A DNA stretch of 64,000 nt from Hyphomicrobium sp. D-2. GTDB lineage: Bacteria; Pseudomonadota; Alphaproteobacteria; Rhizobiales; Hyphomicrobiaceae. Both the position numbers and the translations under genes were made by a program. Positions 37,476 to 49,001 of the stretch are shown piece after piece. Under the pieces are notes generated by a model that worked only from the letters and a program-made list of their open reading frames with translations, ran no database searches and was not told where the DNA came from. Location of the stretch: the NCBI RefSeq assembly GCF_029872155.1, contig NZ_JARXLA010000008.1:2501-66500 (forward strand). The letters are read 5' to 3'. Within the stretch, counting starts at the first letter, position 1, and every line of letters starts with the position of its first letter.

Positions 37476-38138
37476 TCAGGAAACCTCGGGCAGGCACTCG
37501 GCGTCGGCTGGCAGGGGATCACATTGGCGCATGCCGGAGCAGGCACGCAGGGCCTTTTGGAGCGTTTCAGACCGCTCACCGTCCACCGCGCCGAAGTACA
37601 GCCCGTGGGCCTTCAGCCCGCACTGATACATCTTTACCATGCTCTTGCCGCCCAGCCGCATCGCGAGATTGTAGTCTTCGTAGGCGGCCTCGCTCTGGCC
37701 GAGGGACTGGCGAATGTGCGCCCGAGTATCGAGCGCGGACGGGCTGTCTGGCGCCAGCTTCAGCGCCCGCTCAACATCAGCGACACCCTCCGCTGCCCGG
37801 TCCAGCTTGTAGTAGGACCAAGCGCGATTATTCAGCGCCAGCGGAAAATCCGGCGTTATCGCAAGCGCCGCATCATAATCCTGCAGGCCTTTGTCGAAAT
37901 GTCCGACGAGCGAATACGCCAGCGCACGCATCGCATAGGCGAGGCTGAGCTCATCGCTGGGCAAGCCGGGCGTTTCGATAAGGATCGAGCAGCCCTGAAT
38001 GCGGCGCTCATTATCCTCGCTGTGGCAGTCAACCTTCGCGTTAGAAGCGGCTACTCCCGCTGGGGCCGCTACAGACACGGTCACCGCGACGGCAAAGCTT
38101 GCCAGCAGCATCGCAGCAGCACGACTGACGCGCACCAT
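37476..38138 (-). CDS. Secreted tetratricopeptide repeat protein
   Basis: Protein of 220 residues from the ATG at 38138, which has GGGGAGAG just upstream. A signal peptide (AAAMLLASFAVAVTVSVAAPAGVAAS) is followed by about three TPR units between residues 65 and 165 (AYAMRALAYSLVGHFDKGLQ, ALNNRAWSYYKLDRAAEGVA, ALDTRAHIRQSLGQSEAAYE). Several cysteines in the mature part probably form disulfides in the periplasm. TPRs mediate protein contacts; partners are unknown. Confidence 0.8.
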   Translation of the reverse strand: MVRVSRAAAMLLASFAVAVTVSVAAPAGVAASNAKVDCHSEDNERRIQGCSILIETPGLPSDELSLAYAMRALAYSLVGHFDKGLQDYDAALAITPDFPLALNNRAWSYYKLDRAAEGVADVERALKLAPDSPSALDTRAHIRQSLGQSEAAYEDYNLAMRLGGKSMVKMYQCGLKAHGLYFGAVDGERSETLQKALRACSGMRQCDPLPADAECLPEVS

Positions 38139-38530
38139 AGTCTCTCCCCATTCGCACCGGATCGATCCACACACGGCCACGCTTATGTTGAGCCCCAGCG
38201 TATGTTGGGCACTGAGCGGACCATCGCTAGCCCCGGCCCATCAAAAATCTTGAGGCCATACCAGCCCCACGATCGCAATACCGCCGGGGGCCGATATTTT
38301 CCGTGCAGCAGTTCGGCAAGGTTGGCCTAATTCATCCCGAGCGGCATCAAAAAAATACTGCAGGCCGCGGCCCTAACGCCCTCATCCTTCGGCATGTTCC
38401 AGCCCAGCAATCGCGGTTCACCGTTCCGCATGCTAATGAGGCATTACCTCTGCCGCGCTGCCTGCCCCTTAACCCATTTTCCGCCGGCAGCGTGTTAGCC
38501 TTAACGCCTTCCCAAAGGTGAGCGTCCCAC
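38139..38530. other. Intergenic region between the TPR gene and coaBC
   Basis: About 390 bases between divergent genes with no credible coding region. A small perfect palindrome TAATGAGGCATTA lies at 38434-38446, about 85 bases before coaBC, and may be an operator. No firm promoter boxes were identified. Confidence 0.45.
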
Positions 38531-39769
38531 GTGAAACAGCGGCGAATACTACTGATAATCGGCGGCGGCATTGCCGCTTACAAATGCCTCGAACTCATCC
38601 GCCGTCTGCGTGATGAGGGCGCCAGTGTGCGCGCGGTGATGACTAAAGCCGCCACCGAATTCATCACGCCGCTTTCCGTTGGCGCGCTCAGCAATGGCCC
38701 GGTGCTTACCAGCCTGTTCGATCTCAACGCCGAACAGGAGATCGGCCACATCCGCCTGTCGCGCGAGGCCGACCTCATCATCGTCGCGCCTGCTACCGCC
38801 GATCTGCTGGCCAAGATGGCTGGCGGTCATGCCGACGATCTTGCCTCTACTGTTCTGATGGCCACGGACAAGCCCGTGCTGGTGGCACCGGCCATGAACC
38901 CGCGCATGTGGATGCACGCCGCGACCCGACGCAACGTCACGCAGCTGCTCAATGACGGTATCCATTTTATCGGCCCCAATGTTGGCGAGATGGCCGAGAG
39001 CAATGAAGCGGGGTCTGGACGTCTCGCCGAGGTGCCCGAGATCATTGCTGCAGCGTCGCGCCTGCTGAACGCCGACAACGCACCAGGCGCGCTCGGCGCT
39101 CCGCTTGCTGGCAAGCATGTGCTCGTAACCAGCGGCCCGACGCACGAACCGATCGACCCCGTGCGCTACATCGCCAATCGCTCCTCCGGCAAACAGGGAC
39201 ACGCGATCGCACGCGCCGCAGCCGCGCTTGGCGCTAACGTCACGCTTGTGACCGGCCCTGTTGCACTGGCCGATCCCGCCGGCATCAATGTGGTGCATAT
39301 CGAAACGGCGCAGGAAATGGCGCAAGCCGTTGCTTCCGCGCTGCCCGCCGATGTCGCGATCTTCGCCGCTGCGGTTGCTGACTGGCGCAATGCCGCGCCA
39401 AAGGACGCCAAGATCAAAAAGTCATCCGGCGGCAAACCTCAACTCGAACTCACCGAAAATCCGGACATCCTTGCAGGTGTTGGCAATCGCACCGAAGGGC
39501 GTCCGGCCCTGGTCATCGGCTTTGCAGCCGAGACGGAAAACGTTGTTGCGGAAGCCACGCGCAAACGTCAGACCAAGGGGGCGGACTGGATCGTCGCCAA
39601 CGATGTATCGCCTGCTCGCGGCGTGTTCGGCGGTGACGGCAATACCGTCCATCTTGTTACTGCACACAGCGTCGAGGATTGGCCAACACTGAGCAAGGAC
39701 GAGGTGGCCGCGCGGCTGATGGCGCACATCGCAGAGCATTTCAATTCAAAGGCGTCGGTAGCGGAATGA
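38531..39769 (+). CDS. coaBC: Bifunctional phosphopantothenoylcysteine decarboxylase/phosphopantothenate-cysteine ligase
   Basis: Two steps of coenzyme A synthesis in one chain of 412 residues. The N-terminal FMN domain has [16 protein letters not shown] and APAMNPRMW; the C-terminal ligase domain has [21 protein letters not shown] and [10 protein letters not shown]. The decarboxylase lid reads [16 protein letters not shown], without the catalytic-type cysteine of the E. coli ACG motif. The GTG start at 38531 follows AAGGTGAG. The stop overlaps the dut ATG (ATGA). Confidence 0.95.
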
Positions 39770-40506
39770 CATCGAAGCACAAGCCTGCATCCAAAGCTGC
39801 CGCCGTGCGCAAGACTGCCGTCCGCACCACAAAGCCGGCACGCGTATCCGCGCCCGACAAATTGACGAGAGCAACCACTCCAGCAGCGACACCGGCGCAA
39901 TCGACGCGAAAGAAATCGTTGGCTGCAAGACGGGCGGCGAAGGTGAATGTGCGCGTGGTTCAACTTGAACATGGCAAAGGCCTGCCTCTGCCTGCGTATC
40001 AAACCTCCGGCGCAGCGGGCATGGATTTGCTCGCGGCCATCGATGTCGCCCATCCTGTGACGCTGGCTCCGGGCGCGCGTGCCTTGGTGCCGACTGGCCT
40101 GACGATAGAGCTGCCGCTGGGTTACGAGGCGCAGGTGCGCCCGCGCTCAGGGTTGGCGCTTAAAAACGGCGTCACGGTTCTCAATAGCCCCGGCACTGTA
40201 GATAGCGACTATCGCGGTGAGGTTGGCGTCATTCTCGCCAACCTTGGCCAGGCACCGTTCGAAATACGGCGCGGCGATCGCATTGCGCAGATGGTCATCG
40301 CAGCTGTTCTGCAGGCGACGCTGGTCGAAGTTAAAACCATTTCAAATACGGCGCGCGGCGATGGTGGTTTTGGCTCCACCGGAAAGACAATCGCAAAACA
40401 AAAAGCAACATTACGCAAATCACGCGATAAAAAGAAAGCTATCCCTCCTCTCGCTGCGGCGCCAAAAAAATCAGGTTCAAGCAAAGCCCGTACCCGCAAT
40501 CGGTGA
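39766..40506 (+). CDS. dut: dUTP diphosphatase with basic extensions at both ends
   Basis: Hydrolyses dUTP to dUMP and pyrophosphate. The 246-residue chain is well above the usual ~150. The trimeric dUTPase core spans about residues 60-207, with motifs [41 protein letters not shown] and GDGGFGSTG. Before it are about 60 Lys/Arg/Ala/Thr-rich residues; after motif V come 39 more basic residues (such as [15 protein letters not shown]). The extensions look disordered and may bind nucleic acid. Start and stop overlap with coaBC indicates coupling. Confidence 0.93.
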
Positions 40507-40622
40507 TCGGATGCGCGACTTGACAGCCCGAGCCAATCACTCAACGTGAGAAGATGAAGCTGAGGCATTTGATCCGTGCACCCTGCGGATCAGCCGATAC
40601 TGCTCAATCAGAAGGCTCCTCG

Positions 40623-41624
40623 ATGACCAACACCACCGAGTTCAAAACACTGGCTGCAACGCAATCGTGGGGACGCGGGCGCGTTTATGATTCAATCGCA
40701 GAAACGATCGGCCACACGCCGCTCGTGCGGCTATCCAAGATAGCGAACGCCGCAAAGGTGAAAGCGGACATTCTGCTCAAGCTTGAATTCTTCAATCCGC
40801 TTTCGTCCGTGAAAGATCGTATCGGCGTGGCGATGATTGATGCGCTCGAAGCGGAAGGCCGCATCACGCCCGGTCGCACCGTGTTGATCGAACCGACGTC
40901 AGGCAACACAGGCATCGGCCTTGCGTTCGTTGCTGCGGCTCGCGGCTATCGACTGATCCTCGTGATGCCCGAGACGATGTCGCTTGAGCGCCGCAAGATC
41001 CTTTCGCACCTTGGCGCCGAACTTGAGCTGACACCGGGAGCTGGCGGCATGCCTGCAGCGGTCGAACGCGCTGCCGAGCTTGCCAAGACCATCCCTGGCG
41101 CCATCATTCCCGGGCAGTTCGACAATCCGGCAAATCCGCTGGTTCACGAAAAGACGACTGCGGAAGAGATCTGGAACGACACCAACGGCAATGTCGATGC
41201 GATCGTGCTTGGCGTCGGCACTGGCGGCACGCTTACCGGCGTCGGCCGCGCGCTGAAGCCACGCAAGCCGGGCCTCAAGATCATCGCGGTTGAACCATCG
41301 ACCAGCCCGGTTCTTTCCGGCCAGCCACGCGGCCCGCACAAGATTCAGGGCATCGGCGCAGGCTTCATTCCGTCCATTCTCGACACCGGTCTGATCGACG
41401 AGATCGTTACCGTATCGAGTGAGCAGGCGTTCGAGGTTTCGCGCCTGGTGGCGAAGGTTGAGGGTATTCCGGGTGGCATTTCGACGGGCGCCAATGTGGC
41501 AGCTGCTCTGTCGATCGCCGAACGCCCCGAGTTCGCCGGCAAGACGATCGTCACCGTCGCGCCTTCGTCAGCCGAACGGTATTACACCAGTGATCTGTTC
41601 CTTGATCCGACAAAGCCCGCCTGA
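40623..41624 (+). CDS. cysK: Cysteine synthase A (O-acetylserine sulfhydrylase)
   Basis: PLP enzyme of 333 residues making cysteine from O-acetylserine and sulfide. PLP lysine K64 is in NPLSSVKDRIG; the phosphate-binding loop is TSGNTGIGLAF; GVGTGGTLTGVG and PSSAERYYTSDLF are family hallmarks. The ATG at 40623 is chosen over upstream codons because the conserved chain begins near it. A strong terminator follows. It lies about 350 bases before an encapsulin-desulfurase pair that consumes cysteine, a link that may be functional. Confidence 0.95.
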   Translation: MTNTTEFKTLAATQSWGRGRVYDSIAETIGHTPLVRLSKIANAAKVKADILLKLEFFNPLSSVKDRIGVAMIDALEAEGRITPGRTVLIEPTSGNTGIGLAFVAAARGYRLILVMPETMSLERRKILSHLGAELELTPGAGGMPAAVERAAELAKTIPGAIIPGQFDNPANPLVHEKTTAEEIWNDTNGNVDAIVLGVGTGGTLTGVGRALKPRKPGLKIIAVEPSTSPVLSGQPRGPHKIQGIGAGFIPSILDTGLIDEIVTVSSEQAFEVSRLVAKVEGIPGGISTGANVAAALSIAERPEFAGKTIVTVAPSSAERYYTSDLFLDPTKPA

Positions 41625-41652
41625 TCGATCGTCTGAACAGCGCTACTCTTCA

Positions 41653-41685
41653 AAAAAGGCGGCTCCGAAAAGGGGTCGCCTTTTT
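41653..41685 (+). terminator. Rho-independent terminator of cysK
   Basis: Stem AAAAAGGCG/CGCCTTTTT with inner CTCC/GGGG pairing and loop GAAAA, ending in a T run. It separates cysK from the encapsulin gene and implies that the latter has its own promoter. Confidence 0.88.
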
Positions 41686-41689
41686 GCTG

Positions 41690-41977
41690 GCAACACTACA
41701 TTCAGGAAAACGAACAACCCCACACAAAACGACAATATAACAGCCTTTGAAAAATAGAATTTCGATTAAACGAACGAAACTCCGTGATAATGAACCAAAT
41801 CTATTTTGGGAATGCTTATTTCTATTGCGAGCCCCAATATTAGAATATAAACCCGCCTTCAGACGCTAAGTCGCAAAACTTCATACATCCAAATGCGGAC
41901 CAAAAACAAAAGGCCCGCATATGCCGCGCTGCCCGCAGGGCAGCGTGCGAGCCAACGTGTGCAAGAAAGGTTTCTCC
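41690..41977 (+). promoter_or_regulatory. AT-rich promoter/leader of the encapsulin operon with palindrome and two hairpins
   Basis: The stretch 41700-41880 is clearly AT-richer than all surrounding DNA. It contains a small inverted repeat ATATT-AG-AATAT (41837-41848), which could be an operator, and a possible -10 box GATAAT near 41787. Further down, two stems could form in the mRNA leader: ATGCGGACC with GGCCCGCAT (about 41893-41920), and the perfect CGCTGCCC-GCA-GGGCAGCG (41927-41945), ending 32 bases before the ATG. AAAGG upstream of the ATG is the likely ribosome site. The regulator is not identified. Confidence 0.5.
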
Positions 41978-42931
41978 ATGGCTGAGGAAGGCGCGGGTCG
42001 CGGAACACTGGCAGAAGGGGCGGCAAGGCAATTAGCCAACGCCACCAAGACGCGGGCGCAATGGGGTGGAATTACGCCGCGCTGGCTCATTCCCTTCCTG
42101 CCCTGGACACCGGTCGAAGCCGGCATCTACCGCCTCAACAAGGTGAAGGAAACGCGCGGCGCAACTGCAAGCTCCACCCTGGACGTGCAGTGCAGTCCGC
42201 CACGGGACAGCGACCCGGACCTGCCAGAGACATTCGTCGACTATGAAGAACAGCCGCGCGAATATTTTCTGAATGCGGTCACCACGGTGCTCGACGTTCA
42301 AACCCGCGTATCCGACCTTTACAGCCATCCATTCGATCAGATTCAGGAGCAGTTGCGCCTGCTGATCGAGAAGGTGAAGGAGCGGCAGGAAAGCGAGCTG
42401 ATCAACAACAAGGAATATGGTCTGCTCGCCAACACCGCGCCGTCAATGCGTATTACTGCGCGCAGCGGCGCTCCGACGCCTGACGATCTCGACGAGCTTA
42501 TCGCGAAGGTCTGGAAAGAGCCGTCTTTCTTCCTGGCGCATCCGCGTGGCATCGCCGCCTTCGGTCGCGAATGCACCCGCCGTGGCGTACCGCCGCCCAC
42601 CGTCAATCTGTTCGGCTCACCATTCCTCACCTGGCGCGGCATCCCGCTCGTACCGTCGGATAAGGTTCCGCTGACGCCGGAAGGAAAGTCCAAATTCCTG
42701 CTGCTGCGCACCGGTGAGAAGAAGCAGGGCGTCGTCGGCCTGTTCCAGCCCGGCGTTCCCGGCGAAGTTGCTCCCAGCCTTTCGGTCCGCTTCATGGGCA
42801 TCGATCGGCGCGCAATCGCATCATACCTGATCTCGCTCTACTGCTCGCTTGCCGTTCACACGGAAGATGCATTGGGCGTTCTGGATGATGTTGAGGTGGG
42901 CAAGTACCATGACTACCCCGCAGCGAAGTGA
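41978..42931 (+). CDS. Family 2A encapsulin nanocompartment shell protein (SrpI/MMP-I-like)
   Basis: Shell subunit of 317 residues with the HK97-capsid fold expected for encapsulins; it should assemble into a closed icosahedral protein compartment. The N-terminal arm ARQLANATKTRAQWGGITPR, followed by WLIPFLPWTPVEAGIYRLNKV, closely resembles cyanobacterial SrpI and mycobacterial major membrane protein I, the type members of Family 2A. Typical later parts include DVQTRVSDLYSHPFDQIQEQ and FGSPFLTWRGIPLVPSDKV. No cyclic-nucleotide-binding insertion is seen, which excludes Family 2B. The ATG at 41978 has AAAGG upstream. The end overlaps the next gene, a cysteine desulfurase, which is the known cargo class of this family. 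Confidence 0.93.
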   Translation: MAEEGAGRGTLAEGAARQLANATKTRAQWGGITPRWLIPFLPWTPVEAGIYRLNKVKETRGATASSTLDVQCSPPRDSDPDLPETFVDYEEQPREYFLNAVTTVLDVQTRVSDLYSHPFDQIQEQLRLLIEKVKERQESELINNKEYGLLANTAPSMRITARSGAPTPDDLDELIAKVWKEPSFFLAHPRGIAAFGRECTRRGVPPPTVNLFGSPFLTWRGIPLVPSDKVPLTPEGKSKFLLLRTGEKKQGVVGLFQPGVPGEVAPSLSVRFMGIDRRAIASYLISLYCSLAVHTEDALGVLDDVEVGKYHDYPAAK

Positions 42932-45047
42932 AGTGAGCGCCGTGGCCGATACGGCAGAAAACGCGACGCCATCCGTCGCAGGTGACGCGGTGCAATCTGC
43001 ACCGCCCACCGCCGTGCCAGACGTGGCGGCGATTGCCCGTCTGGCTAACGCGTTGTATGCAACGCCGCCAGCAAGTCCCTATCCGGGACCAGGCGCGGCG
43101 CTGCCATCGGCGCACGTGTTTGCATCGGAGCCTGCCTATAACTCCGTTCCCGGCACGCCAACGCTGCATCCGCCGCTGACGCCGAACCAGAACCCCGGGC
43201 GGCCAGCGCTGCCTATTCCGGAGTCGGGAGCAGCGCAGCCATCAGCACATGTGTTTGCCGCCGAGCCCGCGTTGCGTAATCCGCAGCAGCTTCAATCCGC
43301 ACCGGCGCTTGCCAGCGGCAGCCCAACAGGCCCGGGCCTGGATACGCTTGAGCTGCCGTCATTTTCGCGATCACCGCAGAACACACCAGGCACAGGTGCA
43401 GCGGCGCCCGCACGGCCAACGTCAGGTGCTCCCGCACCATCGCGGCCCGCGACCAACGAGCTCGACTACGCAGCCGTGCCGCTTTCTCTTGGCGGCACGC
43501 TCGCGCTCGTGCCCGAATTTGATGACGGCGATCTTTCATATGGCAACGACACGCTGACGGGACCGGCTTATGGCGCTGCATCCCCCGACAACAGCTTTGC
43601 ATTCCTTGACCGCTCGACGGCAGCGCCATTCGATCCCGCCCCGAAGTCGGGCAATGGCGCAACGCCTGCTGCAAAGTCTGCGTCTACACCCGCATCAGGC
43701 ACACCGTTCGCATACGCTTACAGCGCTTCTCCGCTTGATGTCAGCGCGCTGGATCTGAACGCACTCGGCTACCAGCATCAGTCTGCCGTTGCGGGATCAC
43801 CACAGGCCATATCGGGCGTGCGCCCATTCGATCCGCGGGCCATCCGCCGGGACTTCCCGATCCTGCGCGAGCAGGTCAACGGCAAGCCGCTTGTCTGGCT
43901 TGATAACGGCGCGACGACGCAGAAGCCCCAGAGCGTTATCGACCGGCTGGCTTATTATTACGCGCACGAAAATTCCAACATCCATCGCGCGGCGCACACG
44001 CTGGCTGCTCGCTCAACCGATGCCTATGAAGATGCGCGCGCCAAGGTGCGCACCTTTATCAACGCGCCATCGCCGGACAGCATCATCTTTGTCCGCGGCA
44101 CAACCGAGGGCATCAATCTGATCGCCAAGGCGTGGGGCGGACGGAATGTCAGCGAGGGTGATGAGATAGTCATCTCGCATCTCGAGCACCACGCCAACAT
44201 TGTTCCATGGCAGCAACTTGCCGCCGCGAAAGGAGCGATCCTCAAGGTCGCGCCGGTTGATGATAGCGGGCAGGTCATCCTGGCGGAGTTTGAAAAGCTC
44301 TTCACGCCGCGTACGCGCGTTGCTTCGTTCAGTCAGGTATCGAATGCACTGGGCACGGTGACGCCCGTTGCCGACATGGTCGCCATCGCCCATCGCCACG
44401 GCGCCATTGCCATCGTTGACGGTGCGCAGTCGGTCTCGCACATGCCCATCGATGTGCAGGCGCTGGACGCGGACTTCTTCGTGTTCTCGGGACACAAGAT
44501 GTTTGCACCCACCGGCATCGGCGCTGTTTACGGTCGTCCCAGCATACTGGAGGCGATGCCGCCATGGCAGGGCGGCGGCAACATGATCAGCGATGTCACG
44601 TTCGAAAAGACAACGTTCCATGGCGCTCCTGCGCGCTTTGAAGCTGGAACCGGCAACATTGCGGACGCTGTCGGCCTCGGCGCCGCGATCGATTATCTGT
44701 CGCGCATCGGCATGTCGAACATCGCTGCTTATGAGCACGAACTGCTGGAGTATCTGACGCGCGGGCTGCTGACCGTTCCGGGGCTGCGCATCATCGGCAC
44801 CGCAACGGAAAAGGCCGGCGTCGCATCGTTCGTTCTGGATGGGTGGCGTGTTGAAGAAGTCGGCAAGGCGCTGGCGCAGGAGGGCATCGCTGTGCGCGCT
44901 GGCCACCACTGCGCGCAGCCGATCCTGCGCCGCTTCGGACTGGAAGCTACCGTGCGTCCCTCGCTGGCGCTTTACAACACCACTGACGACGTCGATGCGT
45001 TGATCGCGGTGCTGCAGCGCCTTCAGGCCAGCCGCGCCCGGCGCTAA
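42909..45047 (+). CDS. Encapsulated cysteine desulfurase (SufS-like) with long N-terminal cargo-loading domain
   Basis: PLP enzyme of 712 residues that releases sulfur from cysteine as a persulfide or sulfane sulfur. Residues 1 to about 305 are Pro/Ala/Ser/Gly-rich and disordered; this is the cargo-loading domain expected for Family 2A encapsulin cargo. It has VAAIARLANALYATPP (39-54) and a duplicated GAAxPSAHVFAxEPA motif (62-76 and 107-121). The catalytic domain begins at FDPRAIRRDFPILREQVNG and has SHLEHHAN (420s), PLP lysine K530 in FSGHKMFAPTG and catalytic C668 in RAGHHCAQPILRRFG. The ATG at 42909 overlaps the shell gene by 23 bases and has GAGGTGGG upstream. Members of this family have been linked to elemental sulfur storage. 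Confidence 0.94.
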   Translation: MTTPQRSEVSAVADTAENATPSVAGDAVQSAPPTAVPDVAAIARLANALYATPPASPYPGPGAALPSAHVFASEPAYNSVPGTPTLHPPLTPNQNPGRPALPIPESGAAQPSAHVFAAEPALRNPQQLQSAPALASGSPTGPGLDTLELPSFSRSPQNTPGTGAAAPARPTSGAPAPSRPATNELDYAAVPLSLGGTLALVPEFDDGDLSYGNDTLTGPAYGAASPDNSFAFLDRSTAAPFDPAPKSGNGATPAAKSASTPASGTPFAYAYSASPLDVSALDLNALGYQHQSAVAGSPQAISGVRPFDPRAIRRDFPILREQVNGKPLVWLDNGATTQKPQSVIDRLAYYYAHENSNIHRAAHTLAARSTDAYEDARAKVRTFINAPSPDSIIFVRGTTEGINLIAKAWGGRNVSEGDEIVISHLEHHANIVPWQQLAAAKGAILKVAPVDDSGQVILAEFEKLFTPRTRVASFSQVSNALGTVTPVADMVAIAHRHGAIAIVDGAQSVSHMPIDVQALDADFFVFSGHKMFAPTGIGAVYGRPSILEAMPPWQGGGNMISDVTFEKTTFHGAPARFEAGTGNIADAVGLGAAIDYLSRIGMSNIAAYEHELLEYLTRGLLTVPGLRIIGTATEKAGVASFVLDGWRVEEVGKALAQEGIAVRAGHHCAQPILRRFGLEATVRPSLALYNTTDDVDALIAVLQRLQASRARR
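43092..43271 (+). repeat. Duplicated putative shell-docking motif inside the cargo gene
   Basis: Codons at 43092-43136 and 43227-43271 encode GAALPSAHVFASEPA and GAAQPSAHVFAAEPA, with 13 of 15 residues the same and a spacing of 45 residues. The codons differ at many third positions, so the amino acids have been kept under selection after an old duplication. Conserved short motifs in an otherwise disordered leader are the best candidates for shell binding. Confidence 0.75.
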
Positions 45048-45054
45048 AACATCG

Positions 45055-45085
45055 AACGGCGGGCGATACGCATGCGCCCGCCGTT
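45055..45085 (+). terminator. Terminator-like hairpin after the encapsulin operon
   Basis: A perfect 11-bp stem AACGGCGGGCG/CGCCCGCCGTT with a 9-base loop starts eight bases after the desulfurase stop. The sequence after it (CCTTCCTC) is pyrimidine-rich but has no real T run, so termination may be partial. Confidence 0.65.
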
Positions 45086-45272
45086 CCTTCCTCAACATAA
45101 CCACTGCACACGCACCGCTTGACAGATCACGGCGACGGAGCACCGCGCGCCACTAATCCCCCAATTGAACTTTCATCGCCCATTGGCGTTTTCCCCGCAA
45201 ACGCATTGCGTTCTGTGCGGGCGTATCTCCATGCGCGTCGCACCTATCGATTGTCACCGTACGGGGCGCGAC

Positions 45273-45965
45273 ATGCCCGATCACTACCCGGAAATAATGC
45301 TGCATCTTGGCTCGGCCCTGCTCGCCGGCAGCCTGATTGGCTTGGAGCGCTCCATTCACGGACGCCCTGCGGGCTTCCGCACGCACGCGCTCGTGTGCCT
45401 TGCATCGGCCTTGCTGATGCTCATTACGCTGTATCAGGACGAGTGGCTGGAAACGATCGCGCGTGAAACCGTTCGCGCTGATCCGACACGCGTTGCGCAG
45501 GGCATCGCGACCGGCATCGGCTTTCTGGGCGCCGGCGTGATCTTCAAGGAGCGCTTCACCGTTCGCGGACTGACGACGGCGGCTTCGATCTGGATCACCG
45601 CCGCCATCGGCATCATGTTCGGCATCGGGTTTTATTTCCCGGCGGTGCTCGCCACCATCGCGACACTGATCGTACTGGCAGTCTTCCGATACGTCGAAGG
45701 CTGGCTGACGACGCGCACCTCGGCCTACAATGTCATCCGCTTTGCGCGCGATTCCATCCTGCCCGAATCTGAGCTGCGGGGCTTGCTCGATCATCACGGC
45801 TTTACCATTTCCAAGATCAGCTATCGGCTGATCGCATCGGGAACGATGTTCGAATATCGCATGTTGATCTATTCGGAGGACGCTGATGCGCCCCAGCGCC
45901 TAGTGCGAACCCTTGCCAGCATGCCAGCGGTTCTGGAATTTCGCCTGTCGATGACCGGAGAATGA
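45273..45965 (+). CDS. MgtC/SapB family membrane protein
   Basis: Inner-membrane protein of 230 residues from the ATG at 45273; an in-frame ATG at 45231 is possible. The first half has four to five helices with family motifs GSLIGLERSIHGRPAGFRTHALVCL and GIGFLGAGVIFKERFTVRGLTTAAS. The C-terminal soluble part (about 150-230) resembles an ACT-like domain. MgtC-type proteins act in growth at low magnesium and on the ATP synthase, mostly known from pathogens; in free-living bacteria the role is unclear. Confidence 0.88.
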   Translation: MPDHYPEIMLHLGSALLAGSLIGLERSIHGRPAGFRTHALVCLASALLMLITLYQDEWLETIARETVRADPTRVAQGIATGIGFLGAGVIFKERFTVRGLTTAASIWITAAIGIMFGIGFYFPAVLATIATLIVLAVFRYVEGWLTTRTSAYNVIRFARDSILPESELRGLLDHHGFTISKISYRLIASGTMFEYRMLIYSEDADAPQRLVRTLASMPAVLEFRLSMTGE

Positions 45966-46086
45966 AACCTCACCGTTCAACCTCGGCGCATCATCCGGCG
46001 CCGTCATAAGCACAGCTATTTTTCTTCGTTCCGCCCTTCGCCTGCGTTCGGCTAGCTAGCAATCCGAGATCGGGCTGGAGGGATAA

Positions 46087-47134
46087 ATGCTTGCACGAAC
46101 CATCTTGGCTGACCACCGCGTCAAGCCTGTCAGAACCGCCGTTATTGCTGCTGTTGCGCTGATTGCAGGCGCGGGTGCTGTCTTCGCAGATGACCAGAAA
46201 ACCCTGCTCAACGCCTCCTACGATGTTTCGCGCGAGCTCTACAAAGACATCAGCCGCGGCATTCATCGCGGCGGAGAAAAGCCGCCCGGCAAAGACGTTG
46301 CCCGTCAACCAGTCCCACGGCGAGATCGACCAAGCAGGCAGCTCACGCCGGTTGCCAACGGCCTTGAGGCCGATGTCGTAACCTTCAATCAGGCGCCCGA
46401 TATCGACATTCTGGCCAAGGCTGGCGTTGTCGATGCCGACTGGCGCGCCGGGATTTGCTAACAACGCTTCGCCCTCGCGACAACCTCGGTTTTCTGGTTC
46501 GCAAGGGCAGTCCCAAGCAGATCAAGGATTGGGATGATCTAGCCAAGCCCGGCATCGAAGTGATCTTGCCCAACCCGAAGACATCGGGCAATGGCCGCTC
46601 ACATATCTCGCCGCATGGGGCGATGCTCGGTGCAAGACAGGCAGCGAAGAGGCGCGCGCAGGATTTCGTCGCCAAACTGTTCGCCAGCGCGCCGGTTTCT
46701 CGATGGTGGTGGACGTGGCGCAACGACGACATTCACCCAGCGCGACAAGGGCGACGTGCTCGTTACATTTGAAAATGAGGCTGCGCTGATCGGCCGTGAG
46801 ATCGGTGCCGACAAATTTGAAGTTGTCTATCCCAAGGCTAGCATCATCGCCGAGCCTCCGGTTGCAATCGTGAACTCGGTTGTCGATCGCCGCAGCAGTC
46901 GCGAACTGGCCAAGGCCTACATCGACTTCCTGTACTCGCCAGCTGGGCAGGAAATCATCGCCAAGCACGATCTGCGGCCCCGCGATGCCGAGTGTTCTGA
47001 AGGCAAACGCCGCCAAGTTCCCGCCGATCGAAACCTTCTCGGTTGAGGAACTGCTGGGCGGCTGGGAGGCGGTGCAGAAGAAGCATTTCGCTGACGGCGG
47101 CATCTACGACACCATCACTATCGGCAAACAGTAG
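46087..47134 (+). pseudogene. Sulfate ABC transporter substrate-binding protein, broken by many single-base insertions
   Basis: The first codons encode a normal signal peptide ending AGAVFADDQ, then the sulfate-binding start LLNASYDVSRELYKDIS. After that the similarity jumps between all three frames: NQSHG, GLEADVVTFNQAPDIDILAK, NLGFLVRKGSPKQIKDWDDL, PNPKTSGNG, GATTTFTQRDKGDVLVTFEN, AEPPVAIVNSVVD, FLYSPAGQEIIAKHDLRPRD and ELLGGWEAVQKKHFADGG. Together they cover a whole Sbp/CysP protein. About ten extra single bases (for example near 46254, 46312, 46323, 46341 and 46990) account for the shifts, with no clear deletion. No sulfate permease genes follow. It is either a pseudogene or a sequencing artefact. 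Confidence 0.85.
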
Positions 47135-47182
47135 TTCTACCCAGGCTTTCCCTAGCGCTTTTCCCCTAGCTACCCAAACTTG

Positions 47183-47218
47183 CCCCGGATGCACCCGCAT
47201 CCGGGGCTCTTTTATTTT
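47183..47218 (+). terminator. Strong terminator after the sulfate-binding protein gene
   Basis: A perfect 10-bp stem CCCCGGATGC/GCATCCGGGG with loop ACCC is followed by CTCTTTTATTTT. This intact signal shows that the broken gene was recently a functional transcription unit. Confidence 0.92.
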
Positions 47219-47421
47219 CAGCAGCATCGCTTTTTCGACGTTCGTAAAACGCCCGCGCCATAACCATGTTTATTGCACGGTGCCGCTGTTAGTCGGCATC
47301 GGTGGCGCAAGCGGCCAATTTGGCTAAGCTGCCCGTCAGTGAAATCAGACGCGCACCGAACGGCCATGAAGCATCACCATGGTGCTTCGGCTTGGCACTC
47401 AAACGGCACGGCACAGAAAAC

Positions 47422-48270
47422 ATGACTTCCGTTTCACTCTCCGCAACGGAGATCGAGCGATACAAAAGACATCTGGTCCTCAAGGAAGTTGGCGGCCAGG
47501 GACAGCGAGGCGCTGGAAAGCGCGCCCGTGTTCTGCTGGTCGGAGCAGGCGGCCTCGGCTCGCCGCTAGCGCTTTGCCTTGCCGCGGCGGGCGTCGGCAC
47601 AATTGGCATTATCGATGACGATCACGTCTCGCTCGATAACCTGCAGCGCCAGATCGCCCACACCACCGCCAGCGTCGGCGCTCCCAAGGTAAACAGCGCA
47701 GCGGCAGCGATGGCGGCCATCAATCCGCACATTACAGTTGAACCGCTGAACATGCGGCTCGATGCTACCAACGCGCTGGACATCATCTCCCGCTACGACA
47801 TTGTCGCCGATGGGTCTGACAATGCCGCAACACGTTACCTTGTGTCAGATGCCTGCTATCTGGCCAAACGCACCCTCGTTTTTGGCGCTGTTGGTCCGTT
47901 CGACGGATACGTGTCGACCTTCAAGCCACACCTGAGCGGCCCTGACGACACACCTTTCCCAAGCTACCGCTGCCTGTTTCCGGAGCCGCCGCCAGCGAAC
48001 GAAGGCCCGAACTGCTCCGACGTAGGAGTGTTGGGCGCCGTTGTCGGTGTCATCGGTACTTTGCAGGCAACAGAGGTACTTAAGGAAATCCTCGGATTGG
48101 GCACCACGCTCGCCGGTCGGCTGCTAATCTATGATGCACTTGCCGCACGCTTCGAAAGCGTTTCGGTGGGCTGGGATCCGGAAAATGCCATCAGCGGCGT
48201 CAACCCTTCGATAACCGATCTATCAATTCATGCAGCGGCGGCGAATCGCAACTCGACATGCGCGGCATGA
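47422..48270 (+). CDS. HesA/MoeB/ThiF family adenylyltransferase
   Basis: E1-like enzyme of 283 residues that would adenylate the C-terminal glycine of a small sulfur-carrier protein (MoaD- or ThiS-like). It has the nucleotide-binding LLVGAGGLGSPLALCLAAAG, the DDDHVSLDNLQRQIAH motif with the catalytic arginine, and GPNCSDVGVLGAVVGVIGTLQATE. Unlike typical MoeB the first zinc pair is reduced to YRC (no CxxC) and no C-terminal CxxC is present, so the structural zinc site appears lost. No rhodanese domain. No carrier gene is adjacent. MoeB or ThiF assignment is uncertain. Confidence 0.85.
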   Translation: MTSVSLSATEIERYKRHLVLKEVGGQGQRGAGKRARVLLVGAGGLGSPLALCLAAAGVGTIGIIDDDHVSLDNLQRQIAHTTASVGAPKVNSAAAAMAAINPHITVEPLNMRLDATNALDIISRYDIVADGSDNAATRYLVSDACYLAKRTLVFGAVGPFDGYVSTFKPHLSGPDDTPFPSYRCLFPEPPPANEGPNCSDVGVLGAVVGVIGTLQATEVLKEILGLGTTLAGRLLIYDALAARFESVSVGWDPENAISGVNPSITDLSIHAAAANRNSTCAA

Positions 48271-48285
48271 CAGGATACCGCTTTC

Positions 48286-48777
48286 ATGTTCCACATTTGG
48301 ACATTGCGTACCGTGTATATTGCCCTTATCGCAGCCCTGCTTCTCCTCTTGCCCGAGTATCGCGAGGCGCACGCGCAGCCTGAGCAACAGCAGATGTCTG
48401 TAGCTCCCGCGCCCTCCGACGACACGCTCGAGTACGGCGCCATTGCGTTTACGCCCGACGGCTCCTTTTTCGCAGTTTGGAAGATCGGATCGCGACTGGA
48501 AGCGGAAGAAAAAGTGCGTGCCGAATGCGCGGACATGGGGCGCGGCAATTGCGAGGCCGTCAGCTTCCGTGGCGAAGTGTGTGCCGCAATTGCGTCCGGG
48601 CGCGTTTCCAAGCAGCGCAAGGTCACCTACTCCGGCGGCGGCTTGACCCCGCGCGAAGCCGAACGTGTGGCCCTCGACCGCTGCAATAAAAACCGTCGCG
48701 CGCGCGGTTCCTGTCAGCTTCGGACAACTGTTTGCGGCGATGGGCGGCTGGATTCAGCAACCGCCAAGGCGCCCTGA
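48286..48777 (+). CDS. DUF4189 domain-containing secreted protein
   Basis: Protein of 163 residues with an N-terminal signal peptide or anchor (VYIALIAALLLLLPEYREAHA). The mature part has two DUF4189-like halves: YGAIAFTPDGSFFAVWKIGS with paired cysteines (RAECADMGRGNCEAVSF, EVCAAIA), and a basic end with ALDRCNKNRRARGSCQL and TTVCGDG. Disulfides are likely. The role of the family is unknown. The start is 15 bases after the ThiF-like gene, so they may share a transcript. Confidence 0.75.
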   Translation: MFHIWTLRTVYIALIAALLLLLPEYREAHAQPEQQQMSVAPAPSDDTLEYGAIAFTPDGSFFAVWKIGSRLEAEEKVRAECADMGRGNCEAVSFRGEVCAAIASGRVSKQRKVTYSGGGLTPREAERVALDRCNKNRRARGSCQLRTTVCGDGRLDSATAKAP

Positions 48778-48947
48778 AACTCGGCACGGTGCGCGTCACG
48801 CCACCAACGCAGCGCGTTTTGCGATCACTCGAAAACGGCCAGCGGCTCTCGATGCGATGCCGCTACCCTGCCCGCAGACCCGCCCTGCAAGATGGCGCCA
48901 AGCGCTCGTCGACAACTCGCGTGCGCAGTTGATGTGATCTCGGATGC

Positions 48948-48976
48948 AATAAGGGCGCCCCTCACGGGAGCGCCCC
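48948..48976 (-). terminator. Terminator of the D-glycerate dehydrogenase gene
   Basis: On the reverse strand GGGCGCTCCC pairs with GGGGCGCCC around a GTGA loop and is followed by TTATT. It lies about 25 bases after the dehydrogenase stop. Confidence 0.75.
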
Positions 48977-49001
48977 AAATAATCTCAACCGAAACTGTGG
49001 C

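Follow-up and report, generated by a model that had tools for sequence, protein, structure and literature searches.

A 64-kb stretch of the genome of Hyphomicrobium sp. D-2 (assembly GCF_029872155.1, contig NZ_JARXLA010000008.1), referred to here as the window and used for all coordinates below, almost certainly carries a family 2A encapsulin operon predicted to load a SufS-type cysteine desulfurase by means of a disordered leader. A gene for a 317-residue family 2A shell protein (41978–42931, + strand, ATG at 41978 and TGA at 42931) is followed by a gene for a 712-residue encapsulin cargo cysteine desulfurase (42909–45047, + strand, ATG at 42909 and TAA at 45047), the start codon of which lies inside the shell gene, with 23 nt common to both. 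The original prediction, made from the letters of the window, had proposed this order and overlap, and its coordinates proved exact, with both products scoring above the curated NCBI cut-offs. The assignment of family and cargo is supported by curated profiles, matches to solved structures, conserved catalytic residues and conserved gene order. The window comes from a Hyphomicrobium near H. sulfonivorans S1 (L011), with 91.6% DNA identity across a 14.9-kb alignment. The pair adds one clear family 2A member in the methylotrophic genus Hyphomicrobium, and it is an ordinary member of an already described set of operons, since the cited passages of a 2021 survey catalogue 1281 family 2A operons whose cargo is a desulfurase, including 813 from Proteobacteria (PMC8346489). 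To this our analysis adds a candidate operator upstream of the shell gene and a comparison with genomes in which the same chromosomal site is empty.

Shell protein, cargo desulfurase and leader

The shell protein scored 514.9 bits against NF041162, the NCBI equivalog model for family 2A shells (cut-off 380, a margin of 135 bits), and 350.4 bits against the SrpI-like Pfam family PF19307 (cut-off 22.8), in agreement with the SrpI/MMP-I-like identity first proposed for it. As the desulfurase likewise exceeded the cut-off of NF041166, the NCBI model for family 2A cargo cysteine desulfurases (849.1 bits, cut-off 800), the shell and cargo assignments are not due to chance. The shell also scored above the family 2B model NF041163 (427 bits, cut-off 400), its best stretch covering profile positions 209–449 of 450. 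The cNMP-binding domain that marks family 2B was absent from the 317-residue protein, in which Pfam gave the SrpI-like family alone. The closest solved shells by sequence were 8t6r, 6x8m, 9ksl, 8wol and 8won. A Foldseek search with the AlphaFold2 model, which is confident in part of the chain, placed family 2A and 2B encapsulins on top, with seven entries at E < 0.001 and 8t6r at E 5e-28; weak matches to phage capsids, including those of lambda and SPO1, ranked lower. Alignment with VIA-align gave a Z score of 19.6 over 153 residues for 8t6r and 19.0 for 6x8m, as against about 8 to 11 for phage HK97-type capsids and family 1 encapsulins. The predicted structure thus shows the HK97-type fold expected of an encapsulin shell.

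The C-terminal part of the second gene product is a SufS-like cysteine desulfurase domain (43827–45047, + strand; TIGR01979, 557.6 bits), which was well modelled by AlphaFold2 and whose top structure match was 8kg1, the crystal structure of the Mycobacterium smegmatis cargo desulfurase. Identity to 8kg1 was 67–68% over about 400 residues, and identity to E. coli SufS was about 49%. More specifically, Lys530 (44496–44498), Cys668 (44910–44912) and Arg683 were invariant in an alignment of 33 cargo sequences; from general knowledge of SufS, we take Lys530 to be the lysine that binds pyridoxal phosphate and Cys668 to be the persulfide cysteine. Another class-V aminotransferase with an equal score (483.9 bits) is encoded in the same genome at C5:102803 and is probably the housekeeping SufS, as judged by the class-V score rather than by a SufS-specific profile. 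The encapsulin-linked desulfurase therefore need not be the essential copy.

We then considered how usual this arrangement is. In a scan of one genome per species, the best 80 of 275 shell relatives were retained, giving 81 loci together with the window, and the ATG closest to the shell stop codon was taken as the desulfurase start by rule of thumb. At 73 of the 81 loci a desulfurase gene followed the shell gene in the same orientation, and the other eight contigs stopped 85 to 908 bases past the shell gene. Among the 73, the two genes overlapped in 56 and were separated by no more than 100 bases in 12 and by 280 to 1166 bases in five. A leader longer than 100 residues was present in 72 of the 73 desulfurases (range 128 to 448), L069 being a partial match with no leader and L070 ending at a contig edge. 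As overlap and a long leader dominate these loci, the anatomy of the window, including the length of its leader, is the usual one. The pair recurred in loci of Pseudomonadota, Acidobacteriota and Myxococcota; the shell was found in five of eight Hyphomicrobium genomes and, within the taxonomic family of the genus, in 29 of 103 genomes and five of 25 genera. The alphaproteobacterial version had originally been called probably uncharacterised. That form is in fact widespread, and its family was surveyed computationally in 2021. Among the papers listed from an open-licence library, no title or opening of an abstract dealt with an alphaproteobacterial 2A system, and no encapsulin paper appeared for the methylotrophic genus Hyphomicrobium.

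The first 306 residues of the desulfurase (42909–43826, + strand) form a leader rich in alanine, proline and serine (19.6%, 15.7% and 10.8%, respectively), in which cysteine and tryptophan are absent. The SufS-like part opens with FDPRAI at residue 307, so that the disordered leader originally given as 305 residues is one residue longer; its disorder is likewise predicted by the AlphaFold2 model, 277 of the first 304 residues lying in segments with a predicted local distance difference test (pLDDT) value below 50 (residues 1–33, 52–228 and 238–304). The best-modelled piece ahead of the leader end was a helix at residues 39–51 (block pLDDT 52 to 72), around a first motif, PDVAAIARLANALYAT (residues 37–52; 43017–43064, + strand), which matches the published LARLANEFFS, a motif reported for the majority of these desulfurases (PMC8049743). 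Its counterpart here, IARLANALYA at residue 42, was equalled in none of 2000 shuffles, and a profile trained without Hyphomicrobium found motif 1 with none of 5000 shuffles as good. The 5000-shuffle tests and the 25-leader test described below were made on held-out sequences.

A second conserved segment, ELDYAAVPLSLGGTLALVPEF (residues 184–204; 43458–43520, + strand), was likewise matched by none of 5000 shuffles with a profile trained without Hyphomicrobium. A profile built from the 30 best leaders out of 47, almost all of them alphaproteobacterial and with Hyphomicrobium excluded, detected it at the 1% level or below in 14 of 25 held-out leaders, three of which were from Hyphomicrobium. The underlying pattern, DLxxLPxxLGxxxxLVP, also extends to some cargo desulfurases from outside the Alphaproteobacteria, and it differs from both leader motifs named in the cited passages of PMC8049743. 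A third motif, SFAFLDRS (residues 229–236; 43593–43616, + strand), is a weak form of the published AASPYYFLDG, which according to the same passages is present in most, though not all, such desulfurases (PMC8049743). The leader further holds two copies of a repeat with the pattern GAA(L/Q)PSAHVFA(S/A)EPA, GAALPSAHVFASEPAY (43092–43139, + strand; none of 5000 shuffles as good) and GAAQPSAHVFAAEPAL (43227–43274, + strand; from motif counts). Counterparts of this repeat were present in Rhodopseudomonas and Bradyrhizobium leaders, and it was restricted by lineage, occurring in 14 to 16 of 72 leaders as counted with profiles fitted to the same sequences.

The original prediction had treated leader-based cargo loading as established for family 2A, and this holds for Synechococcus elongatus, where the disordered N-terminus is described as both necessary and sufficient for loading (PMC8049743). 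The passages cited further report that the first 100 residues of that leader load cargo, at a level below that of the full leader, and that a piece containing only the second motif fails to do so (PMC8049743). Motif 1, the ARLANALY segment near residue 42, is therefore, we infer, the likeliest cargo anchor. By analogy with the studied relatives, the HK97-type shell proteins would assemble into a closed icosahedral shell, and the desulfurase, translated from its overlapping start, would be drawn inside by the disordered leader, with the segment near residue 42 as its putative anchor. The encapsulated enzyme would remove the sulfur of cysteine, forming a persulfide at Cys668, and this sulfur may be stored or passed on under the control of the shell. 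The operon may also respond to sulfur starvation, as in its relatives.

Several observations weigh against this overall reading. The AlphaFold2 model of the shell was weak (mean pLDDT 53.5, confident mainly at about residues 131–250 and 291–310), and because it is poor elsewhere the evidence for the fold comes mainly from the 53–61% identity to solved 2A shells. The short form SFAFLDRS was borderline (23 of 5000 shuffles as good, and 1.6% of shuffles in the held-out test), and for the full published AASPYYFLDG 1589 of 2000 shuffles were as good as the leader, which is not significant. Serine O-acetyltransferase and rhodanese genes are given as the most enriched 2A accessory genes in the cited part of the survey (PMC8346489), and neither was seen among the block proteins profiled with Pfam and NCBIfam. 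As the HK97 fold is common to phage capsids, and lambda and SPO1 did appear as weak Foldseek matches, the shell gene might in principle be a prophage capsid gene beside an unrelated desulfurase. To this we assign a negligible probability: the 2A equivalog profile was exceeded by 135 bits, the shell and desulfurase genes recur together in three phyla, and no phage family of Pfam or NCBIfam was found in any protein or fragment that was profiled from the interval between dut and the DUF4189 gene. We rejected a phage origin on these grounds, and a family 2A encapsulin with its cargo desulfurase is by far the better account of the pair.

With respect to accessory functions, the commonest neighbours among mechanically picked open frames across the loci were hexapeptide-repeat proteins (17 of 135 downstream and 16 of 128 upstream). 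These are probably mostly serine acetyltransferases, and the N-terminal domain specific to such enzymes was present in four of the downstream and five of the upstream proteins. The only match above the cysE cut-off in the genome of the window was on another contig.

A palindromic candidate operator upstream of the shell gene

When the 260 bases upstream of the Hyphomicrobium shell genes were aligned, one block was kept even in G006, where the operon is located elsewhere. In the window this block contains the palindromic element TCCGTGATAATGAACCAAA (41781–41799, + strand), which spans positions −197 to −179 relative to the start codon of the shell gene. Its consensus is TCCGTNATARCGGA followed by NNAAA, which can also be written as TCCGTTATAACGGA-NN-AAA. 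We propose, tentatively and at somewhat less than even odds, that this palindrome is the operator of a regulator through which several lineages of Alphaproteobacteria and a gammaproteobacterium control their 2A encapsulin operons, giving the compartment a switch of its own. It offers a concrete handle on the regulator and on its signal, and control matters more here than the addition of one further protein pair.

The pattern TYCGTNATARYGAANNAAA, derived from Hyphomicrobium, was searched for in up to 350 bases upstream of 80 shell genes; six of these regions come from Hyphomicrobium entries, two of which (L012 and G004) are apparently the same record, and 74 from other organisms. With up to three mismatches the pattern matched 18 regions, compared with about 0.45 when the sequences were shuffled within 50-base blocks. 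The distance to the start codon across loci ranged from 112 to 268 bases, and in the window the copy at 41781 was the sole match with up to two mismatches (0.06 expected). Twelve of the 74 regions from outside the genus carried the palindrome at the same stringency: one Bradyrhizobium (L014), one Xanthobacteraceae metagenome-assembled genome (L020), one member of the Methylococcaceae (L073), five Rhodospirillaceae, mostly Magnetospirillum (L048, L049, L054, L055 and L064), and four Azospirillum (L050, L051, L056 and L058). As related species are counted separately here, the independent events are fewer than 12, perhaps four. A half-site-like CCGCTAT or CCGTTAT was seen by eye about 21 bases further upstream in L048, L054, L055 and L064. 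On account of the symmetry of the palindrome and this extra half-site, we would guess at a LysR-type, CysB-like sulfur regulator.

Whole-genome searches showed that the palindrome accompanies the operon to a different chromosomal place and that, at high strictness, it occurs nearly only there. With one mismatch, the 19-base form was found before the shell gene in all five Hyphomicrobium genomes that bear the encapsulin and in none of the three that do not; one extra site lay off the operon in the genome of the window (C2:764544), and the reversed control gave one match, in G004. The 14-base form TYCGTNATARYGRA had one site in each of four of the eight genus genomes, all at the encapsulin. In a set of seven other genomes, that of L014 not among them, the strict 14-base form had one site each in G105, G106 and G108, located at the encapsulin by comparison of coordinates, and none in the other four; the reversed control gave two matches, both in G109.

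Several results stand against the operator. The reversed control of the 14-base form produced six matches in three genus genomes, so the uniqueness of that form is not strong on its own. Relaxing the 19-base form to two mismatches left no excess in the genus genomes (41 matches against 42 for the reversed control). With up to three mismatches the palindrome was absent from 62 of the 80 upstream regions and is thus not a general feature of the family; all nine Rhodopseudomonas loci lacked it (L015–L019, L021, L022, L024 and L025), eight of them with shells 85–87% identical to that of the window. A search of 385 alphaproteobacterial genomes with the strict 19-base form, made with the encapsulin carriers among them uncounted, gave three matches against one for the reversed control; this form had no match in the genome of the window itself. 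By tblastn, the 3 kb around the three matches contained no counterpart of the shell, the cargo, cysK, sbp or any other neighbour from the window, and we therefore read these matches as chance. The idea of a wider regulon was set aside, as no further target genes were seen.

The element at 41781 could instead be part of a structured RNA leader. Between loci, its inverted repeat shows what look like paired changes on both arms (TCCGT..ACGGA and TCCGC..GCGGA), and its location, 112 to 268 bases ahead of the start codon, would suit such a role. Symmetric changes are, however, equally expected of the binding site of a dimer, the copy in the window has a short, imperfect stem, and no Rfam family reached its gathering score within 38000–49000, by which an RNA element known to Rfam was rejected for this interval. 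We consider an RNA element unlikely, and prefer a DNA operator. No sigma-70 consensus promoter was found within 41600–47500, where 1.8 would be expected by chance. Among the papers listed by a literature search with the core letters of the palindrome, no title was about a bacterial control site, and the passages on 2A encapsulins cited here do not cover control outside cyanobacteria; the palindrome may be unreported as an encapsulin control site.

The block between cysK and thiF

The cysteine synthase A gene cysK (40554–41624, + strand; TIGR01139, 416.2 bits, cut-off 351) ends 353 nt before the shell gene on the same strand, and the adjacency originally noted is therefore real. It is not specific to the encapsulin: cysK belongs to a coaBC-dut-cysK-thiF order that was contiguous, with no encapsulin at this place, in four of the eight genus genomes (G002, G003, G005 and G006). 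In the genome of the window, in G007 and in G001 a block comprising the shell and desulfurase genes, mgtC (in two of the three) and sbp lies between cysK and thiF; the G004 contig ends after the shell gene that follows cysK, and in G006 the shell, desulfurase and sbp genes are found at another chromosomal place. DNA homology with the four empty sites ended at the end of cysK (41608–41625) and restarted at 47437–47449. As the order around cysK exists without the operon, and as breaks in homology flank the block, the proximity of cysK reflects the location of the block.

A closer link has nevertheless to be weighed, in which cysK, the shell gene and the desulfurase gene form one transcription unit and CysK makes the cysteine that feeds the encapsulated desulfurase. 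The common strand and the gap of only 353 nt speak for this, as do the cysK-like genes in the flanks of 19 of the 81 encapsulin loci, compared with under one expected by a rough estimate (1.14 Mb of flanks, assuming two to three copies per genome as in the genome of the window). Three of the 19 represent the shared Hyphomicrobium site, and the arrangements vary, some of them being convergent, as in L124 and L126 from two further genera of the family. Set against it are the four genomes with coaBC-dut-cysK-thiF and no operon there, the different location of the operon in G006, and the A+T-richer gap between cysK and the shell gene (45.6% G+C), which together with the palindrome suggests a separate promoter. 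We regard the single unit as rather doubtful, and the empty-site comparison shows that adjoining cysK is by itself no evidence of a shared operon. As sbp-like genes were also present in the flanks of 13 of the 81 loci, a functional link of cysK and sbp to encapsulins is likely at the level of the encapsulin family, which is known to occur in a sulfur-related context (PMC8346489).

The origin of the block was examined with a tree of 48 shells, in which the five Hyphomicrobium shells formed one clade and seven shells belonging to four further genera within its taxonomic family formed a separate clade, grouped with shells of Rhodocyclaceae and Pseudomonadaceae; both clades fell inside one weakly supported half. 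In an approximately unbiased (AU) test on a reduced set of 31 shells, a single clade of four Hyphomicrobium shells and six rows from the four other genera, set against 21 rows, was rejected (p-AU 0.0098, for a hypothesis chosen after the tree had been seen and with a long branch). This rejection makes a transfer on one side or the other likely, as far as the shell tree goes. Among the best 80 of the 275 relatives, the closest shells outside the genus were those of Rhodopseudomonas and Bradyrhizobium (85–87% identity), with those of other genera of the family at 67–72%; the grouping of Hyphomicrobium with Rhodopseudomonas and Bradyrhizobium was weakly supported (43/46). Base composition gave no sign of transfer, with 60.3% G+C in the insert, 61.3% to its left and 60.5% to its right. 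A tree of five flanking genes implied three changes between occupied and empty states, and as the cysK tree roots the genus differently this root is uncertain. Overall, the Hyphomicrobium operon was probably acquired or moved as a unit, beside a pre-existing cysK.

The remainder of the block consists of a gene for an MgtC-family membrane protein (45165–45965, + strand; PF02308, 138.7 bits) and a remnant of sbp, the sulfate-binding protein gene (46087–47134, + strand; TIGR00971 pieces in three frames). The block ends with a terminator-like hairpin with an 11-pair stem and a T-rich tail (47182–47207, + strand, from a hairpin scan), a kind of site not enriched across the region (6 found, 6.2 expected). 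Its right-hand neighbour encodes a ThiF/MoeB-type E1-like adenylyltransferase (47302–48270, + strand; PF00899, 229.3 bits). The mgtC gene is shared with H. sulfonivorans S1 (L011/G007) and was not found in G001 (L112) or G006 (L113); the G004 contig ends before it. The sbp remnant has 5, 6 and 9 stops in its three forward frames, and the gene is intact at the same place in L011 (345 residues) and in G001 (L112); the broken frame could reflect decay or a sequencing problem.

Further genes were noted at related loci. In the copy of the operon at the other chromosomal place (L013, the same contig as in G006), a predicted 263-residue protein resembling by eye a HAD-type phosphatase is encoded between the desulfurase gene and sbp (L013:10992–11783), and a protein resembling by eye a sulfonate-binding protein is encoded upstream of the shell gene (L013:6744–7718). 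In G001 an open reading frame of 375 codons lies between sbp and thiF (L112:11672–12799). At three loci from two other genera of the family (L122, L123 and L124), a sulfate-binding protein gene precedes the encapsulin by about 1.2 kb, in the same orientation; despite this gene, their shells belong to another clade than the Hyphomicrobium shells.

Comparison with known encapsulins

Family 2A was defined with the SrpI system of S. elongatus PCC 7942, for which the cited passages describe loading by a disordered N-terminus, induction by sulfate starvation and a higher enzyme activity upon encapsulation (PMC8049743). The role cited for family 2A is the storage of sulfur (PMC12407261; PMC10960027). 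The Hyphomicrobium pair shares with the SrpI system (6x8m) 59% shell identity, an adjacent desulfurase, a disordered N-terminus and the LARLANEFFS motif. It differs from it in the length of the leader (306 residues as compared with about 225), in the degeneracy of the second published motif and in the location of its block beside cysK and thiF. The nearest solved shell is the Acinetobacter baumannii 2A shell (8t6r, 61% identity). Sulfur storage by the A. baumannii family 2A encapsulin was reportedly described by Benisch et al. in 2024. The mycobacterial Mmp1 shell (8wol and 8won) is 53–57% identical and the M. smegmatis desulfurase 8kg1 is the closest solved cargo, in a comparison that covers the shell and the catalytic domain and reaches into a different phylum. 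Lastly, the family 2B encapsulins 9bje, 9bix and 9bhu have a related shell fold at 42–47% identity, and unlike them the Hyphomicrobium shell has no cNMP-binding domain.

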